Part shown: one piece after another, positions 29,580 to 56,763 of the stretch
Numbering within the stretch: position 1 is the stretch's first letter
Layout of the letters: each line of letters begins with the position of its first letter
Assembly: GCA_951812575.1 (NCBI GenBank)
Contig: OX638322.1
Span: 2,231,925-2,295,924 of the forward strand
DNA: 64,000 nt
Direction of reading: 5' to 3'
DNA from: Candidatus Binatia bacterium
Lineage (GTDB): Bacteria; Desulfobacterota; Binatia; Bin18
Translations under genes and position numbers: made by a program
The notes under the pieces: generated by a model
Seen by the model: only the letters and a program-made list of their open reading frames with translations
Databases searched by the model: none
Told to the model about the DNA's origin: nothing

Positions 29580-32500
29580 ATGGGTACGAGTCGTCTGGCC
29601 GCACACTGGAGCATCCGTCCCGCCCTGTTTCTGCTGGGAGCAGGGATAGTCTTTCCTCCACCCGCGACAGCCCAGGACCAGACCCTCACCGGCTGGTTCA
29701 GTTTTATCGTCGCCGATTATCCGTCCGAGTCCGGTCTTGCCTCTGAAACTACCTATACGTTGACTGAGGACTCGGGCGAGCGGCACGAACTCCTGATCGA
29801 TATCGCCCTCATGCAGCCGCTGGGCGGCCCAGTAGCCTTGAACCGTAAGCGGGTGACGGTGGTGGGCGAGTGGGAGCCGGGCGAGCCTGACGTCCCAGCG
29901 CAGTTCCGCGTCCACTCTATCGAACTGGTAGCGCCCCCGCCGACCGCCTCGTCGGGCAGGACCTTCGCGTCCGTATCATCTTCCCGGACCGCAGTGACCG
30001 GTTCCCAGGCGTGGGTGACGATTCTCTGCCGCTTTGGCGATGCGACCGATGTCACCCCGCGTCCTGTCAGTTGGTATGAGGAGTTGATGGGTTCCTCTTA
30101 TCCTGGCCTGGGACACTATTGGGAAGAAGTCTCTTACGGGAACATCCCCGATCTGAGCGGCAGCGCGGTGGTCGGCTGGTACAACCTGCCCCAGCCACGA
30201 TCGTATTACGTCTACACGCATCACGAGCGGTTCGACGGAGCGGAAGATTTTAGGACCGACAGAGCAGTGGAAGACTGCACTGCCGTGGCCGATGCGGAGG
30301 TGTTCTTCCCCGACTTTGATGGGATCAACTTGATCTTTAATCACAGCGGTACGAATAATGCCGTCTCCAGGGGTGGGAGTAAACGACTGACGCTGGATGG
30401 ACAGACGCAGTTCTATGGTGTCACGTGGATACACCCAGCTCATGATGAAACCCACCCTCATTCCGTTTTGGCCCACGAAATGGGCCACGCCTTCGGCCTG
30501 CCGCATTCCTCCGGGCCGTATGATGAGGCCTATGACTCGCGCTGGGATGTCATGAGTGGGGGAGGGTCTTGTCGGTTGCCTGATCCCGAGCATGGCTGTG
30601 TAAGCGTCCATACCATCGCCTACCACAAGGACTTTCTGGGCTGGATTCCCCCAGCCCGGAAGTATGTGGCTCCCCACAACAGCACCCGCACGATTACCCT
30701 TGAACGGCTGGCCCATCCCGGCTCTGACGGCTACCTGCTGGCCCAAATTCCCATCGGTGACTCGACGACCGATTTTTACACCGTCGAAACGCGGCTGTTT
30801 GCCGGCTATGACGACGAAATCCCGGACGAAGCGGTCGTCATCCATAAGGCCGATACCACGCGGGAAGATCGGCTGGCTCAGGTCGTAGATATAGACAACA
30901 ACGGTGACCCGAACGATGAAGGCGCAATGTGGACGGTGGGCGAGATATTTACGGACTTGGAGAATAACCTCCAGGTCTCCATCGACGCCGCGTGGTCCAC
31001 GAGCTACCGGGTGACCATCAACACCAACCCGGCCACGTTCCGCACCTGCATAGATTTTCTGTCTGATTCCTCCCACCTCCTCGGACCGAGTAGGGGTACT
31101 GCCAGTGTCCAAGCCGAGGCGGCAGACGATTGCGAGTGGTCGGCAAGAAGTAACACGGAATGGATACGTGTGGCGTCTGGGGCTAGCAGCAGCGGCTCTG
31201 GACAGATCAGCTATACAGTGACGAGGAATCCTCGTTCCACTGCCCGGACCGGCACGCTGACTATCGGGGGGTGGACGTTTACGGTGACCCAGGCGGGCGT
31301 CAATGGGGATCTGTTTGAAGATGACATGGAGAACGGGGCAAATGGCTGGGAGGGGTTTACTTGTGGACCAGACGGCTGTTCGAGAGAATCTCTCTGGGCT
31401 TTGACCACGGCTTCTTCCCGAAGCGGTGCGTATGCCTGGACGGACAGTCCGAGCGGGAATTATCAGAATGACCTGAACGTTTTTCTTCAGTCCCCGATTA
31501 TTGATCTGACTAGGGTCAAATCTGCAACCCTGGTCTTCTGGCATCGGTTTGACATTGCCAGTGGCGGCGACGGGGGCATTGTGTATGTGAATTGGGGGGA
31601 CAGCGAGTGGACAGAAATCCGGCGCTTCACCGGCACGAATCTGACTTGGCAGCAGACATCCATTGATTTGACGCCTTTCGGTGGACAGTCAATACGGCTC
31701 ACCTTTCAACTGTATGCCGATGCCACCGGTACCGCCGCCGGCTGGTATATTGACGACGTGGCGGTGTACTCGTCCGATTTCGAGACCCCGGGACGAACCC
31801 AGGGCGTGCTGGAAAATCCGCAACCTCACTCCTTCCAGAGCGGCATCGCGGCCATCTCGGGCTGGGCGTGTGAGGCCAATGAGATTGTCATTGAGCTGAA
31901 CGGGATACCGCTACAAGCGGGCTATGGCACCATACGAGAGGATACGCGGAGTGTCTGTGGCGATGCCGATAACGGCTTCAGCCTGTTGTGGAACTGGAAC
32001 AACCTGGGGCCGGGGACGCATAGGGTCCGGGCCCTGCTTGACGGGCAGGAGTTTGCCAATACGACCGTGCGGGTGACCACCTTTGGGGAACAGTTCTTAC
32101 GAGGGGTGAGCGGTGCATTCACCCTGCCCGACTTTCCCACCTCGGGCGAGACCACCGTCGTCCAGTGGGAAGAGGCGCTCCAGAACTTTGTCACCACCGA
32201 TGGTCAGCCGAATACCGGCGGGGGATACAACCGGGTGGCCAGTATCGATGCGATTTTGGAAAACCCGTCGCTGGGATCATCTCAGAGTGGCATTGGTGTG
32301 ATCTCGGGCTGGGCGTGTGAGGCAGAAGAGATTGTTATTGAGTTGGACGGGATACCGCTGCGCGCCGCCTACGGGACGGCCCGGGAGGATACGCGCAGTC
32401 GCTGTGGCGATACCAACAACGGTTTCAGTCTGTTGTGGAACTGGAACAACCTGGGGGCAGGGACGCATACGGTCCGGGCGTTGCTTGACGGGGTAGAGTT

Positions 32501-32651
32501 TGCCGACACCACCGTGCGGGTAACCACCTTTGGGGAGACATTCTTACAGGAGGTGAGTGGCACGTATCCCCTGTCGGATTTCCCCAGGGCCGGGGACATG
32601 ACCAGGGTACGGTGGGAAGAGGCGTTGCAAAATTTTGTGATTATGCCCTGA
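29580..32651 (+). CDS. Secreted multidomain zinc metalloprotease (copy 1)
   Basis: 1023 residues. Signal peptide (1-31, ending TAQD); an N-terminal domain ending near residue 110; a metzincin-like catalytic domain (about 135-400) with LAHEMGHAFGLPHSSG and Met-turn DVMSGGG; a BACON-type domain near 500-575 (SNTEWIRVASG...GTLTIGGWTFTVTQAG); an immune-inhibitor-A/MAM-like jelly roll (about 578-735: EDDMENGANGW, SPIIDLTRV, GWYIDDVAVY); and two C-terminal repeats of about 130 residues, each with SGWACEA and NGFSLLWNWNNLG. Extracellular proteolysis, possibly of surface or matrix proteins, is inferred. The next gene at 32895 is a close tandem paralogue. RBS is GAGGGGAGG. Confidence 0.92.
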   Translation: MGTSRLAAHWSIRPALFLLGAGIVFPPPATAQDQTLTGWFSFIVADYPSESGLASETTYTLTEDSGERHELLIDIALMQPLGGPVALNRKRVTVVGEWEPGEPDVPAQFRVHSIELVAPPPTASSGRTFASVSSSRTAVTGSQAWVTILCRFGDATDVTPRPVSWYEELMGSSYPGLGHYWEEVSYGNIPDLSGSAVVGWYNLPQPRSYYVYTHHERFDGAEDFRTDRAVEDCTAVADAEVFFPDFDGINLIFNHSGTNNAVSRGGSKRLTLDGQTQFYGVTWIHPAHDETHPHSVLAHEMGHAFGLPHSSGPYDEAYDSRWDVMSGGGSCRLPDPEHGCVSVHTIAYHKDFLGWIPPARKYVAPHNSTRTITLERLAHPGSDGYLLAQIPIGDSTTDFYTVETRLFAGYDDEIPDEAVVIHKADTTREDRLAQVVDIDNNGDPNDEGAMWTVGEIFTDLENNLQVSIDAAWSTSYRVTINTNPATFRTCIDFLSDSSHLLGPSRGTASVQAEAADDCEWSARSNTEWIRVASGASSSGSGQISYTVTRNPRSTARTGTLTIGGWTFTVTQAGVNGDLFEDDMENGANGWEGFTCGPDGCSRESLWALTTASSRSGAYAWTDSPSGNYQNDLNVFLQSPIIDLTRVKSATLVFWHRFDIASGGDGGIVYVNWGDSEWTEIRRFTGTNLTWQQTSIDLTPFGGQSIRLTFQLYADATGTAAGWYIDDVAVYSSDFETPGRTQGVLENPQPHSFQSGIAAISGWACEANEIVIELNGIPLQAGYGTIREDTRSVCGDADNGFSLLWNWNNLGPGTHRVRALLDGQEFANTTVRVTTFGEQFLRGVSGAFTLPDFPTSGETTVVQWEEALQNFVTTDGQPNTGGGYNRVASIDAILENPSLGSSQSGIGVISGWACEAEEIVIELDGIPLRAAYGTAREDTRSRCGDTNNGFSLLWNWNNLGAGTHTVRALLDGVEFADTTVRVTTFGETFLQEVSGTYPLSDFPRAGDMTRVRWEEALQNFVIMP

Positions 32652-32681
32652 CGGGGTGCGCCAACAGAAGAGGACGGGCAG

Positions 32682-32708
32682 CCACAGGGGGCTGCCCCTA
32701 CAATTCCA
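32682..32708. repeat. GGGGCAGCCCC-type palindrome
   Basis: GCCACAGGGGGCTGCCCCTA is, in reverse, the same element type as TGTAGGGGCAACCCCCTGTG at 42517 and 44377. It lies downstream of the metalloprotease stop and is repeated identically near 35987-36014. Confidence 0.55.
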
Positions 32709-32745
32709 TTTGCCCCCCACAGCGATCCACGCTACACCCCCCAGC

Positions 32746-32815
32746 ATGGCTGCCAACGCGCTGGTGATCTTTGCCAAATGGCCGCTGCCCGGACAGGTCA
32801 AGACGCGCCTCTGGC
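32746..32815 (+). pseudogene. Truncated 5' end of glycosyltransferase-like gene
   Basis: The first ~23 codons (MAANALVIFAKWPLPGQVKT) match the start of the intact gene at 36052, then homology ends at the duplication junction. It is a by-product of the tandem duplication and not a functional gene. Confidence 0.85.
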
Positions 32816-32876
32816 CCTTTGCTCCGGGAACGCCCGGTGTGATACCACTGTTGTCCTTACCCATTGCTGAGAGCAA

Positions 32877-35800
32877 GAGGAGAGGAAAGGTATCATGGGT
32901 ACGAGCCGCCTGGCCGCACGCTGGAGCATCCGTCTCGTCCTGTTCCTGCTGGGAGCAGGGATAGTCTCTCCTCCACCCGCCCCGGCTCAAGACGCAACCC
33001 TCACCGGCTGGTTCAGCTTCATCGTCGCTGATTACCCGACCGAGTCCGGCCTCACCTCTGAGATCACCTATACCTTGACCGAGGACTCGGGCGAGCGGCA
33101 CGAACTCCTGATCGATGTGGAACTCATGCGGCCACTGGGCGGTCCGGTAGCCTTGAACCGCAAACGGGTGACGGTGGTGGGCGAGTGGGAGCCGGTCGGG
33201 TCTGACGCCATAGCGCAGTTCTGGGTCCACTCCATCCGGCTCGACCCGCTGGAGGATGAGAGAACTACACTTGAAGGGGCATACCAGGCGTTTCAGACAA
33301 CTGCTCAGACGGCGGTGACCGGTTCCCAGGCGTGGGTGACGATTCTCTGCCGCTTTGGTGATGCTACAAATGTCACCCCGCGTCCTGTCAGTTGGTATGA
33401 GGAGTTGATGGGTTCCTCCTATCCTGGCCTGGGACACTATTGGAAAGAAGTCTCTTACGGGAACATCCCCGACTTGAGCGGCAGTGTGGTGGTCGGTTGG
33501 TACAACCTGCCCCAGCCACGCTCGTATTACGTCTACATAAACGATAGAGGTGCCGAAGCCCCTAAGGGGGATAGAGCAGTCAAAGACTGCACTGCCGTGG
33601 CCGATGCGGAGGTGTTCTTCCCCGACTTTGATGGGATCAACTTGATCTTTAACCACAGCGATATGAATCATGCCGTCTCCCAGGGTGGGAGTGAACGACT
33701 GACGCTGGATGGACAGACGCAGTTCTATGGTGTCACGTGGATACACCCAGCTCATGCTAAAGCCCACCCTCATTCCGTTTTAGCCCACGAGATAGGCCAT
33801 ACCTTCGGCCTGCCGCATTCCTCCGGTCCGTATGATGAGACCTATGACTCGCGCTGGGATGTCATGAGTGGGGGAGGGTCTTGTCGGTTGCCTGATCCCG
33901 AGCATGGCTGTGTAAGCGTCCATACCATCGCCTACCACAAGGACTTTCTGGGCTGGATTCCCCCAGACCGGAAGTATGTGGCCGCGCCCAACACGACCCG
34001 GACGATTACCCTGGAACGGCTGGCCCGGCCCGGTGCCGAGGGCTATCTGCTGGCCCAGATTCCCATTGGGGAGTCGGACACCGACTTTTACACCGTCGAG
34101 GCGCGCCTGTTTGCCGGCTATGACGACGGCATCCCGGACGAAGCGATTGTCATCTATAAGGTCGATACCACCAGAGAAGATCGGCTGGCCCAAGTCGTAG
34201 ACATAGACAACGACGGTGACCCGAACGACGAGGGAGCGATGTGGACGGTGGGTGAGACCTTTACCGACGCAGAGAACAACCTCCAGATCTCCATCGACGC
34301 CGCCTACGAGACTGGTTATCGCGTGACCATCAACACCAACCCTGCCACATTTACTGCCGGCATGCTTTCTCCTTCCCGCCATCTCTTCGGACCGGACCGG
34401 AACAGCGCCAGCGTACAGGTCGAGGTTGCGGGGGACTATGCCTGGTCGGCAACAAGCAACAGTGAGTGGATTCGGGTTACTTCCGGTGACATGGGGCGTG
34501 GCCCTGGAAGGGTCAGTTATTCGGTTACAAAGAATCCCCGTCCCACTGTCCGGACGGGCACACTCACCATTGGGGGGTTGACCTTTACGGTGACCCAGGC
34601 GGGCGTTGACGATATTCTGTTTGAAGATGACATGGAGAATGGAGAAAATGGCTGGTATGGGATTACTTGTGGATCAAATGACTGTTCTAGCGGCTCTCCC
34701 TGGTCTCTGACGACAGCTTCTTCTCGAAGTGGGACATATGCCTGGACGGACAGCCCTGGGGGTAAGTATCGGAATGATCAGAATGTTATCCTTTGGTCTC
34801 CTATTATCGATCTGACGGGGATCACGTCAGCCACCTTGACCTTCTGGCATCGGTACGCCTTTGCCAGTGGGGATGAGGGCGGCGTGCGGGTTGCCCGCCA
34901 AAGGGAGGAGGGATGGTGGACAGGGGAAGATGGCGGCAGATTTACCGGTACGCAGTTGAACTGGCAGCAGGCATCCCTTGATCTGAGTCCTTTCGTCGGA
35001 GAGCAAATAAGGCTCGCCTTCAACCTGTGGTCCGACGCGGCTCATACGGCCGACGGCTGGACGATCGACGACGTGGCGGTGTTCTCAACAGACTTCGTCT
35101 CCCCAGTGATCCTGGGGAACCCCCGGTCCGGCTCCTTCCAGAGCGGGATCGCCGCTATTTCGGGCTGGGCGTGTCACGCCCAGGAGATTGTCATCGAACT
35201 CAACGGCGTGCCCTACCGGGCGGGCTACCCGACGACGAGGCCGGATACTCTGGGACGCTGTGGGGATACCGATAACGGCTTCAGCCTGTTGTGGAACTGG
35301 AACAACCTGGGGCCGGGGACGCATACGGTCCGGGCGCTGATCGATGGGCAGGAGTTTGCCAACACCACCGTGCGGGTAACGACCTTTGGAGAGGAGGTCC
35401 TGCGCGGGGCGAGTGGGAGATTCGATTTGCCCGACTTCCCCGCCTCCGGCGAGACCACCGTCGTCCGGTGGGAAGAGTCGCTCCAGAACTTTGTCATCAC
35501 GGACGGGCAGCCGAATACCGGTGGGGGGTATAACCGGGTAGCGGGCGTGAGCGCTCGATTGGAGAACCCGTCGCTGGGATCGGCCCAGAGTGGCATTGGT
35601 GTGATCTCGGGCTGGGCGTGTGAGGCAGGCGAGATTGTCATTGAACTGGATGGGATGCCATTGAAAGCCGGCTATGGCACCACGCGGGAGGATACGCGCA
35701 GTCGCTGTGGCGATGCCAACAACGGCTTCAGCCTGTTGTGGAACTGGAACAACCTGGGGCCGGGAGAGCATACGGTGCGGGCGTTGCTTGACGGGGTCGA

Positions 35801-36116
35801 GTTTGCCCACACCACCGTGCGGGTAACGACCCTGAGGGAGGAGCCGTTCCCGCGGGGCTTGAGTGGCACGTTTCCCCTGTCGGATTTCCCCAGGGCCGGG
35901 GACATGACCAGGGTACAGTGGGAAGAGGCATTGCAAAATTTTGTGATTATGCCCTGACGGGGTGCGCCAACAGAAGAGGACGGGCAGCCACAGGGGGCTG
36001 CCCCTACAATTCCATTTGCCCCCCACAGCGATCTACGCTACACCCCCCAGCATGGCTGCCAACACGCTGGTGATCTTTGCCAAATGGCCGCTGCCCGGAC
36101 AGGTCAAGACGCGCCT
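32877..36116. repeat. Tandem duplication unit 2
   Basis: Second copy of the unit described at 29563-32813. The join between the units (32814-32876) is unique sequence. Unit 2 runs into the complete glycosyltransferase-like gene, so this copy keeps the original right-hand context. Confidence 0.88.
32895..35957 (+). CDS. Secreted multidomain zinc metalloprotease (copy 2)
   Basis: 1020 residues, same domain order as the copy at 29580: signal peptide ending APAQD, N-terminal domain, catalytic LAHEIGHTFGLPHSSG with DVMSGGG Met-turn, BACON-like domain (SNSEWIRVTSG), jelly-roll domain (EDDMENGENGW; GWTIDDVAVF) and two C-terminal SGWAC repeats. Differences cluster in the linker before the catalytic domain (about 105-135), the loop after YYVY (about 215-222) and the jelly roll. 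Both copies keep all zinc ligands, so both are probably active with somewhat different specificity. Secreted via Sec. Confidence 0.92.
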   Translation: MGTSRLAARWSIRLVLFLLGAGIVSPPPAPAQDATLTGWFSFIVADYPTESGLTSEITYTLTEDSGERHELLIDVELMRPLGGPVALNRKRVTVVGEWEPVGSDAIAQFWVHSIRLDPLEDERTTLEGAYQAFQTTAQTAVTGSQAWVTILCRFGDATNVTPRPVSWYEELMGSSYPGLGHYWKEVSYGNIPDLSGSVVVGWYNLPQPRSYYVYINDRGAEAPKGDRAVKDCTAVADAEVFFPDFDGINLIFNHSDMNHAVSQGGSERLTLDGQTQFYGVTWIHPAHAKAHPHSVLAHEIGHTFGLPHSSGPYDETYDSRWDVMSGGGSCRLPDPEHGCVSVHTIAYHKDFLGWIPPDRKYVAAPNTTRTITLERLARPGAEGYLLAQIPIGESDTDFYTVEARLFAGYDDGIPDEAIVIYKVDTTREDRLAQVVDIDNDGDPNDEGAMWTVGETFTDAENNLQISIDAAYETGYRVTINTNPATFTAGMLSPSRHLFGPDRNSASVQVEVAGDYAWSATSNSEWIRVTSGDMGRGPGRVSYSVTKNPRPTVRTGTLTIGGLTFTVTQAGVDDILFEDDMENGENGWYGITCGSNDCSSGSPWSLTTASSRSGTYAWTDSPGGKYRNDQNVILWSPIIDLTGITSATLTFWHRYAFASGDEGGVRVARQREEGWWTGEDGGRFTGTQLNWQQASLDLSPFVGEQIRLAFNLWSDAAHTADGWTIDDVAVFSTDFVSPVILGNPRSGSFQSGIAAISGWACHAQEIVIELNGVPYRAGYPTTRPDTLGRCGDTDNGFSLLWNWNNLGPGTHTVRALIDGQEFANTTVRVTTFGEEVLRGASGRFDLPDFPASGETTVVRWEESLQNFVITDGQPNTGGGYNRVAGVSARLENPSLGSAQSGIGVISGWACEAGEIVIELDGMPLKAGYGTTREDTRSRCGDANNGFSLLWNWNNLGPGEHTVRALLDGVEFAHTTVRVTTLREEPFPRGLSGTFPLSDFPRAGDMTRVQWEEALQNFVIMP

Positions 36117-36753
36117 GTGTCCGCCGCTCCGGTCCGACCAGGCCGCGGAACTGGCGCGCTGCTTTCTCCTTGATACGGTTGAGCGCGTTTCTCGGCTCGA
36201 AGAGGTGCAGGTCTGGGTCGCCTTTACCCCGGCTGATAGCGAGGCACGCTTTCGTGCGCTGCTGCCTGCCTCCGTCTGCTATCTGCCGCAACGGGGCGCG
36301 GACCTTGGTGAGCGTGAGCTGAATATCTTTGTCGATCTGTTCGAGGGAGCAGCGACGCGGGTGGCGATCATGGGGAGCGATATTCCCTCCGTGCCACTCG
36401 CCTATCTCCGTTCGGCCTTCGACCTGCTGAAGAATCCGGACTGTGATGCCGTCCTCGGACCGAGTCGTGACGGCGGCTATTACTGTATCGGTGCACAGGC
36501 CGGCCATGCCGGGCTGCCGGCACTGTTTGAGCATATCGAGTGGAGTACGGAAAAGGTCATGCAGCAGACCTTGCAACAGGCTCGCTTGCATAACCTGAAT
36601 GTGCATCTGATCCCACGCTGGTACGATGTGGATACCGTAGAGGATATGCGGAAGCTGGCGGAGCAGCTAAAGGATATGCCGCATGAAGAAGGTGCCCCCC
36701 GGACCCGGAATTTTTTAGAACAGATAGGGGAGAAGAAGCCCCCCTCACCCTGA
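36052..36753 (+). CDS. TIGR04282-family (DUF2064) glycosyltransferase-like protein
   Basis: 233 residues from the ATG at 36052. GT-A-fold nucleotidyltransferase/glycosyltransferase-like: LVIFAKWPLPGQVKTRL at the N-terminus (nucleotide-binding K-x-P-x-P-G-x-V-KTRL pattern), MGSDIPSVPLAYLRSAFDLL and DAVLGPSRDGGYYCIG, ending in a YDVDTVEDMRKL motif. The family resembles MobA/CofC-type transferases, and the substrate is unassigned. No good SD precedes the ATG. The first 23 codons are duplicated at 32746. Confidence 0.88.
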   Translation: MAANTLVIFAKWPLPGQVKTRLCPPLRSDQAAELARCFLLDTVERVSRLEEVQVWVAFTPADSEARFRALLPASVCYLPQRGADLGERELNIFVDLFEGAATRVAIMGSDIPSVPLAYLRSAFDLLKNPDCDAVLGPSRDGGYYCIGAQAGHAGLPALFEHIEWSTEKVMQQTLQQARLHNLNVHLIPRWYDVDTVEDMRKLAEQLKDMPHEEGAPRTRNFLEQIGEKKPPSP

Positions 36754-49964: not shown

Positions 49965-50432
49965 ATGCCAACCACCAAATACTTCGAGGATTTCGAGATT
50001 GGTGAGGTTTTTCGTTCGTCGGCCAAAACCCTGACCGATGCCCATTTTCTGTTCTTCGCCGGCATGACGGGCGATAACCATTCGATCCACTATGACGACG
50101 AGTACGCCAAGGCCACGCGCTTCGGCAAACGGGTCACGCACGGCTTGCTGGTCACCGCTATGGGCGCGTTGGGCGCATCCGAACTGTCGCCGCTGGTTGA
50201 AGAGTCGATGGTGGCCTTTCTGGAGCAGTCTTCCCGATTCCTTAAACCGGTCCTGATTGGCGATACCATCCAACCGGAGCTTGAGGTCAGCGAGCTCATC
50301 CCCAAGACCAAGGTCGGCGTCCTGCGGCTCAAAACCCGTATCACCAATCAACGCGATGAAGTCGTGCTTGAGGGCACGCACGCCTATCTGATCAAGAAGC
50401 GGCCGCAGGCCGAGCAAGCGTCTCGTCCGTGA
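49965..50432 (+). CDS. MaoC-like hotdog-fold dehydratase
   Basis: 155 residues. The (R)-specific enoyl-CoA hydratase/MaoC motif is visible: FFAGMTGDNHSIHYDDEYA (catalytic D and H around 37-42) and FLKPVLIGDTIQPELEV. It hydrates enoyl-CoA or a related thioester in the cytoplasm. It begins immediately after the RidA-like stop and is followed 15 bp later by the D-aminoacylase-like gene. Confidence 0.92.
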   Translation: MPTTKYFEDFEIGEVFRSSAKTLTDAHFLFFAGMTGDNHSIHYDDEYAKATRFGKRVTHGLLVTAMGALGASELSPLVEESMVAFLEQSSRFLKPVLIGDTIQPELEVSELIPKTKVGVLRLKTRITNQRDEVVLEGTHAYLIKKRPQAEQASRP

Positions 50433-55087: not shown

Positions 55088-55408
55088 TCATCCTTTCTCG
55101 TCGTTTTCGTCTTTGGCGCGCAATGAGATGCTGAGTTCAGCAGCGGCGCGTTCGTAGATATTACTCCGGGGACCGAAGGCAATCATTTCGATGACGGAGC
55201 CTTTGATACATAGGACAAGCCGATTCCTGCCGACCCGATAGCTTCGGAGCCCTATCAATTCATCTTTGAGAGGCTTTGCCTGGTGCGGATTGCCCGCGAT
55301 AGCTCGAAAGGCTGCTTTCACTCTTCGTTTGAGATGGGGGGGGAGGTGAATGATTGCATCTCGGACAGCTTTCGCGGTTTCTATACGATACTGGGGCGTT
55401 TTCGCCAT
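55088..55408 (-). CDS. Type II toxin, RelE/ParE family (second module)
   Basis: 106 residues. RelE-fold pattern: AIIHLPPHLKRRVKAAFRAI, NPHQAKPLKDELIGLRSYRVG and NRLVLCIKGSVIEMIAFGPRSNIY. Paralogous in layout and sequence to the toxin at 20646 (shared KP-L, YRVGR/FRVGR and G-RS-IY). The antitoxin gene ends 9 bp before it, and thrC follows 7 bp downstream on the same strand. Confidence 0.9.
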   Translation of the reverse strand: MAKTPQYRIETAKAVRDAIIHLPPHLKRRVKAAFRAIAGNPHQAKPLKDELIGLRSYRVGRNRLVLCIKGSVIEMIAFGPRSNIYERAAAELSISLRAKDENDEKG

Positions 55409-55417
55409 GCTCTTCCT

Positions 55418-55684
55418 TCAGAGCGGCTCCCCAAAGATATCTTCAAAAGTGAATCGTTGTCCTTTCTGGAGTTGCCGAAGTCCACGTTTAATTTCTCGCA
55501 TCAATTCGGGGTCCTGACGAATTGCTCTAGTTTCTTGCCAACTCGCGAATTCATCCGCGCTCATCAGGACAGCGGCAGGACGCCCGTTCCGGGTGATGGT
55601 AATTTCTTCTTCTGTACTCTCTACAGCTGCGATGATCTGGCTGAGTTTCGCTTTTGCCTCAGATAAAGGAAGATTGCGTGGCAT
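55418..55684 (-). CDS. Type II antitoxin, Phd/YefM family (second module)
   Basis: 88 residues. LPLSEAKAKLSQII, ITRNGRPAAVLMSADEFASW and a charged C-terminus identify a Phd/YefM antitoxin. Strong RBS (GAAAGGAGAAATGAG). Similar in sequence to the antitoxin at 20378; the gene order antitoxin then toxin is the same in both. Confidence 0.9.
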   Translation of the reverse strand: MPRNLPLSEAKAKLSQIIAAVESTEEEITITRNGRPAAVLMSADEFASWQETRAIRQDPELMREIKRGLRQLQKGQRFTFEDIFGEPL

Positions 55685-55844: not shown

Positions 55845-56519
55845 TTAGTTCAGCCCTTGCAGACTCTCAACAATATCACCGGGCTCAAGCCGGGTGGTAT
55901 AGTTTGCATCGATATAGGCCAGCCGAATGGTTCCGTCCTGGTCAATGACATAGGTGCCGGGTATCGGCAGTTCCCAGGCGTCATCGCCGTTGTATTCGGG
56001 CAGTTGGATGCCCATTTTTTCAAAGGTCTCTCGAAGCTCATCGACAAATCGGAAGGCCAGCCCGAACTGCCGTGCGACGTTATTGCCGGCGTCGCTGAGC
56101 ACCTCAAACTGAAGCGCATTCTTTTCGGCAACTGTCAGCGATTTATCCGGGGTTTGGGGTGAGATGGCGATCAGGGAGGCGCCCTGCGCCTGCATCTCGG
56201 CCAGACGATTTTGATATGCCTGCAACTGCAGGTTGCAGTAGGGTCACCACGCGCCTCGATAAAAGGCAATGACCGCCGGTCCTTTGGCCAGGAGCTGTGA
56301 CAGCGTCACCGCCTCGCCACGGGCGTTGGGCAGGGTAAAGTCGGGGGCTGTGTCTCCGACCTTCAGGGCTTTGTCTGCGATGCCGGATTTCACCTGATCC
56401 TCTGTGGTGCGGACCAGCACCTCACGAATCGCCGGCGGAATTTTTGGCAGCATTTCCTTTTGGAAAGCCACGATTTGTTGCTTGAGCTCGTTGTTGAGCC
56501 CGGCTTCTTGACCACTCAT
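55845..56519 (-). CDS. Selenocysteine-containing peroxiredoxin-like protein
   Basis: 224 residues with an in-frame TGA at codon 92 (plus-strand 56244-56246). Before it are APDFTLPNARGEAVTLSQLL and VIAFYRGAW, after it PYCNLQLQAYQNRL, so the site is FYRGAW-U-PYC. Homologues of the AhpC/TSA-like family have W-C-P-Y-C there, so Sec replaces the first redox-active Cys (U92, C95). The downstream frame continues to a normal TAA: ISPQTPDKSLTV, VLSDAGNNVARQFGLAF and PGTYVIDQDGTIRLAYID. The ATG at 56519 fits the SD AAAGGAG best. A SECIS-like hairpin follows. A standard caller would split the gene. Role: peroxide detoxification. Confidence 0.88.
56219..56232 (-). promoter_or_regulatory. SECIS-like hairpin of peroxiredoxin gene
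   Basis: In coding sense CCTGC-AGTT-GCAGG lies with its loop 16 nt after the UGA and G as second loop base, meeting known bacterial SECIS rules. A longer perfect 7-bp stem, CTGCAAC-CTGCA-GTTGCAG (loop 12 nt after the UGA), overlaps and competes. Either may be the functional form. Confidence 0.65.
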
Positions 56520-56763
56520 ACGCATACTCCTTTCAGCAAAGAATGACGTCAGCTCTCCCATCCATATGGATTGTCCGGGGGTAGGTCAACGGGAGAAACG
56601 TCGAGGGCCTGAGCGGAACGCTCTGCTGGAAGGCCAGGCGTGTGTATGGTGACGCAACCACCCGACTTCCTGGACTGGCTATTCCATCCGTAGTATAGTC
56701 CCGCGCGAGGTTGGAGAGGTGCGTTTGCAGACGATATATCTCTCCGGCTGTTAAGGACGACGC

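Follow-up and report, generated by a model that had tools for sequence, protein, structure and literature searches.

A gene on the minus strand of the window (the whole stretch of DNA analysed here, 64 kb in length) almost certainly encodes a peroxiredoxin (Prx)-like selenoprotein, in which an in-frame UGA is decoded as selenocysteine (Sec) at residue 92 through a SECIS hairpin and SelB, yielding a redox UxxC motif. Judged from sequence, Sec decoding at codon 92 is close to certain, and a redox reaction of the Sec92 protein is probable.

The UGA-containing gene and its active site

The coding sequence extends from an ATG at 56519 to a TAA at 55847-55845 (Table 1) and contains a single in-frame TGA, codon 92, in the context F-Y-R-G-A-W-U-P-Y-C. 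The translated product, MSGQEAG...IAFYRGAWUPYCNLQLQ...ESLQGLN, has 224 residues. Gene calling with translation table 11 splits it into two ORFs of 105 and 126 aa, so that the enzyme is likely to be lost from the predicted proteomes of these bacteria. Its AhpC-TSA domain (PF00578) covers residues 54-199, with both halves joined across the UGA, and scores 116.7 bits against a gathering score of 26. The initial annotation had described a minus-strand gene with one in-frame TGA at the Cys site of the family, an uninterrupted frame on either side and two halves of the same fold; all of this was borne out, and in the alignment with peroxiredoxin-like homologues Cys and Sec match exactly at codon 92.

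Table 1. Coordinates of the selenoprotein gene and its elements within the window
Feature	Position	Strand	Remarks
CDS of Prx-like UxxC selenoprotein	55845..56519	minus	224 aa including Sec92, translated with TGA=U; AhpC-TSA E 8e-34; dN/dS low both 5' and 3' of the UGA
In-frame UGA, predicted Sec92 of W-U-P-Y-C95	56244..56246	minus	every UGA-clade homologue keeps TGA; the genome scan's 72 Cys homologues have TGC or TGT
Cys95 codon	56235..56237	minus	invariant; predicted partner of Sec92; aligned to the PrxQ peroxidatic Cys
Spacer between UGA and hairpin, 11 nt	56233..56243	minus	codes for Pro93-Tyr94-Cys95 and two bases of Asn96
SECIS hairpin CCUGC(AGUU)GCAGG	56219..56232	minus	5 bp, 4-nt loop AGUU, loop G at position two (56226); published bSECIS constraints, PMC13188914
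Shine-Dalgarno-like GGAG	56527..56530	minus	7 nt 5' of the ATG; read from the sequence

The AlphaFold model of the protein (pLDDT 94) finds its nearest solved folds in PrxQ/BCP and AhpE, followed by ResA. Alignment with PrxQ places Sec92 at the Ser/Thr of the PxxxTxxC motif, and alignment with ResA places U92-P-Y-C95 on the CxxC, in keeping with the UxxC motif of Prx-like UxxC selenoproteins. Of the peroxiredoxin signature PxxxT/SxxC, the corresponding segment R88-xxx-U92-xx-C95 retains the Cys and has neither the Pro nor the Thr. The active-site Arg is also missing: the aligned residue is Pro187, and the position is occupied by Pro, Ala, Ser or Thr in all 44 rows of the alignment, never by Arg, while the invariant R210 lies elsewhere in the sequence than the peroxiredoxin Arg. 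From the combination of a Prx fold, a ResA-type CxxC alignment and the missing Prx Pro and Arg, we read the predicted active site as a thioredoxin/ResA-like UxxC set on a Prx-like fold, without a true peroxiredoxin site. The original description of the protein as peroxiredoxin-like stands for the fold; for the active site it needs the qualification that Sec lies three residues before the peroxidatic Cys position, where thioredoxin and ResA have the N-terminal Cys of their CxxC.

The same selenoprotein could instead be a true peroxidase, with Cys95 as the peroxidatic residue and Sec92 in a resolving or assisting role, as might be suggested by the alignment of Cys95 with the PrxQ peroxidatic Cys and by PrxQ and AhpE being the closest folds. 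We consider this unlikely, given that Arg88 replaces the Pro of PxxxTxxC, that the catalytic Arg is consistently absent and that the attacking residue is more usually Sec. In the preferred UxxC reading, SelB on the hairpin would bring Sec-tRNA when the UGA enters the A site, and full-length selenoprotein would be made when selenium is available. Within a UxxC motif of the thioredoxin/ResA type, Sec92 would then attack as a selenolate, reducing a disulfide or peroxide substrate and subsequently pairing with Cys95 as a selenenylsulfide; thioredoxin or some other thiol reductant would recycle it. Since the protein has no Cys other than Cys95, its oxidised form is likely to be the U92-C95 selenenylsulfide. 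The selenoprotein is probably cytoplasmic, and on general grounds it is reasonable to expect that Sec at the redox site alters the catalytic rate and pKa.

SECIS hairpin and Sec machinery

The hairpin spans nucleotides +12 to +25 after the UGA, with the loop beginning after 16 nt. The bSECIS model calls for a loop of 3-9 nt, a stem of 4-16 bp, a G in loop positions 1-2 and 16-37 nt between the UGA and the loop (PMC13188914); the window hairpin has this geometry, with its 4-nt loop, 5 bp, G at position two and spacing of exactly 16 nt, the last two as first noted in the initial annotation. Its energy when folded alone, -7.9 kcal/mol in the window and -7.2 in three relatives, is at the edge of the published limit of <= -7.5 kcal/mol (PMC13188914). 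As free RNA, the region folds at -10 to -14 kcal/mol with other hairpins that overlap the SECIS and are more stable than it. When nucleotides +1 to +11, which we infer to be the part of the mRNA within the ribosome channel, are held single-stranded, the pair probability of the SECIS hairpin is 0.99 for the window sequence, and that of its inner four pairs is at least 0.94 in the relatives tested.

No SECIS family match was returned for the region by an Rfam scan. A generic bSECIS score was tried as a discriminator of Sec from Cys genes and abandoned, because a relaxed version of it is also passed by at least one hairpin in 52 of the 72 Cys genes; exact pairs at a fixed position, synonymous constraint and covariation were used instead. 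All five pairs and the GU loop are present in 15/15 UGA genes of the clade, against 1/72 Cys homologues (2/72 if any G at that loop position is accepted together with the five pairs), and this hairpin with a G(G/U) loop arises in only 3.6% of random synonymous back-translations. Across codons 94-101, compared in eight divergent UGA genes, the same-codon fraction is 0.94, versus a gene median of 0.43 and versus 0.48 in Cys genes. The second Leu is always TTG in the UGA genes, although TTG makes up 14% of their Leu codons. Within the window clade, variation in the hairpin is limited to U-A/U-G at one pair, with no compensatory change. UGA homologues from distant members of the phylum have different hairpins, with loops of the GGA/GGC or GUCAU type. 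Among 19 distinct sequences of one hairpin type, covariation is 0.214 versus 0.121 when shuffled (0/500), one pair being C-G in 8, G-C in 7 and U-A in 1; pairing is 86.5% at the true hairpin position versus 33-50% in slid controls. Counted against the explanation are the lack of compensation within the clade, the stabler overlapping hairpins in free RNA, the borderline energy of the stem and the two Cys homologues with the same pairs, one of which also has the GU loop. Across the phylum, the UGA homologues L124-L127 and L129-L152 display at least three SECIS designs (16-nt AGUU, 20-nt GGA/GGC and 23-nt GUCAU), all built into one set of codons of this protein.

The genome, a single contig of 5.18 Mb that contains the window, encodes SelA (E 7.8e-180), a full-length SelB (E 4.9e-116) and SelD (E 5.0e-93), as well as a tRNA-Sec (70.7 bits, anticodon UCA) located ~1 kb from selA, which disposes of the concern, raised at the outset, that Sec machinery might be lacking. 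More broadly, selA was found in 19/19 genomes tested, and 16 of these have the UGA gene as well. Because homologues have Cys at this site, a UGA read as Cys would fit the protein alignment, and the codon might be translated as Cys or another residue by a non-Sec suppressor tRNA or by genome-wide reassignment. This is highly improbable: the sole tRNA with a TCA anticodon among the eight tRNA-Sec-like loci checked is the standard tRNA-Sec near selA, a plain suppressor would have no need of a conserved SECIS, and TGA terminates other genes of the window, such as 49965-50432, with the ATG of the next gene directly after it. Formate dehydrogenase was considered as an explanation of the Sec trait and rejected: the FdhA homologues found in the genome (G000 C1) have no in-frame stop, so that it is apparently other selenoproteins for which the machinery is retained. 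Among the UGA-bridged frames scanned in the window, there was no second selenoprotein gene with an evident redox motif.

Conservation of the UGA codon

All genomes of the same genus (94-99% identical) and family (57-69%) that have the gene carry TGA at the same codon, which is thus kept down to 57% protein identity within the clade. Of 148 genomes examined from the class, 16 gave a match at E 1e-40, and every one of these has the UGA form; in 72 other homologues, which the genome scan drew from many phyla, TGC or TGT occupies the Sec codon. Among 395 sampled genomes of the phylum, 29 matched well, and with a single exception these have the UGA form at the codon 92 site. L128 is a Cys form; L151, which has further stops, is a broken or partial copy.

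Several of these loci deserve separate mention. L151 has extra in-frame TGAs just 5' of the Sec codon (F-*-I-G-R-*-I-W-*-P-Y-C), due to either a broken copy or an assembly error, and its SECIS stem AUUUGGAGCU(GGA)AGCUCUAAAU is still intact. Two UGA copies (L124 and L152) reside in one genome, G518, and L152 has the motif W-U-V-F-C in place of W-U-P-Y-C. Besides its UGA form (L143), G364 has a shorter stop-free match at C10:7685-8182, possibly a Cys relative. A second TGA reported for L117 was discarded, as it sits upstream of the ATG.

The two ORFs called with table 11 could be taken for a pseudogene, or for two genes parted by a genuine stop without readthrough. We deem this slightly less probable still than non-Sec suppression, as a single domain runs across the UGA and the stop falls at the identical codon in all close relatives. 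Furthermore, for L102 and L105, taken as an example (Nei-Gojobori), dN is 0.030 and dS 0.245 on the 5' side of the UGA, and 0.035 and 0.294 on the 3' side; with dN so far below dS on either side, a pseudogene or a pair of unrelated ORFs is strongly disfavoured. Least probable of all, to the point of being negligible, is that the TGA of a Cys gene arose by an error of sequencing or assembly: although TGC or TGT is one base away and the relatives are largely metagenome-assembled genomes (mostly labelled Candidatus Binatia/Binatota, Desulfurellaceae or Entotheonella in the genome scan), the identical TGA recurs in 15 further genomes from the class, as well as in additional contigs and members of the phylum, from independent projects, and synonymous freezing downstream is confined to UGA genes. 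The suspicion of such an error, voiced in the initial annotation, is thereby removed. Taken together, the evidence practically excludes a sequencing error, a pseudogene and a global reassignment of UGA.

History, genomic neighbourhood and relation to known selenoproteins

In phylogenetic trees, the window clade consists entirely of Sec forms (12 rows, support 95/95), and other Sec lineages are interspersed among Cys forms, with six changes in the broader set. Repeated gain of Sec is not established by this pattern, because a single Sec clade survived the AU test when run with an earlier set (p-AU 0.12). The differing hairpins at one position, together with Sec and Cys forms across phyla, make a good natural data set for studying the gain and loss of Sec, and one that bears on how a SECIS gets fitted into a fixed peptide.

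No conserved operon partners were seen beyond the genus. On the minus strand at 55088-55684, a Phd/YefM antitoxin and ParE-like toxin pair separates the selenoprotein gene from a PALP (threonine synthase-like) gene. The window genome has the pair at that place, as do two of its congeners (L103, L107); it is absent in four others, where the selenoprotein and PALP genes are close neighbours. Elsewhere in the window, two adjacent large ORFs on the plus strand (29580-32870 and 32895-36173) share an identical C-terminal LQNFVIMP, both stop at TGA and look like a tandem duplication of a ~1020-codon gene.

Among known redox proteins, Sec peroxiredoxins (PxxxTxxU, e.g., PrxU, NF040737) and PrxQ/BCP share the fold and have their peroxidatic residue where C95 lies, but Sec is three residues earlier in the window protein, which lacks the Prx Pro and Arg and scores 28.8 with the PrxU model, versus a cut-off of 270. 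ResA/TlpA proteins have a CxxC that aligns with the UxxC, and Pro-x-Pro-x-T aligns with the cis-Pro loop; in contrast to them, the window protein has an N-terminus without signal peptide or anchor (by eye) and a helical N-terminal extension of ~50 residues, and its ResA score is 48.2 versus a cut-off of 170. SelL-related redox proteins (NF040769) match residues 57-218 with E 1e-11, but at 44.7 bits versus a cut-off of 120; the SelL motif is UxxU. No NCBIfam model scored above its cut-off for the window protein, two Cys relatives or one distant UGA relative. Within the same orthologous group there is also a Cys form (F-Y-R-G-x-W-C-P-Y-C-N-L-Q-L, bacteria of many phyla), which is 42-55% identical over the aligned length, W-C-P-Y-C-N-L being invariant in the alignment; it differs in having TGC/TGT for TGA, unfrozen synonymous sites and, mostly, no such hairpin.

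A 'Prx-like' selenoprotein with a thioredoxin-like UXXC was described in 2005 (PMC1088965), and Prx-like UxxC proteins were reported from the Sargasso Sea and GOS data (PMC1088965, PMC2398784). More recent catalogues, of 2022 and 2026, list PF00578 UxxC proteins (PMC9312934, PMC13188914), the latter also including the cd02970 peroxiredoxin-like family with UxxS (PMC13188914). In the literature searched, we found no paper naming Binatota together with selenoproteins. The W-U-P-Y-C group might constitute an undescribed subfamily, nearly all Sec in one phylum and Cys in the other sampled phyla, with several Cys/Sec exchanges and differing SECIS at the same codons, a proposal that we put forward tentatively and with some doubt. 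The main added interest is the wide use of Sec in one phylum. Because UxxC Prx-like selenoproteins are already catalogued and no NCBIfam model passes, we file the window gene as a new, well-supported example of this known kind, with which it shares the AhpC-TSA domain, a UxxC replacing the TxxU of Prx and a SECIS just 3' of the UGA; this heading pools several lineages, and the likeness is to its description rather than to a reference protein.
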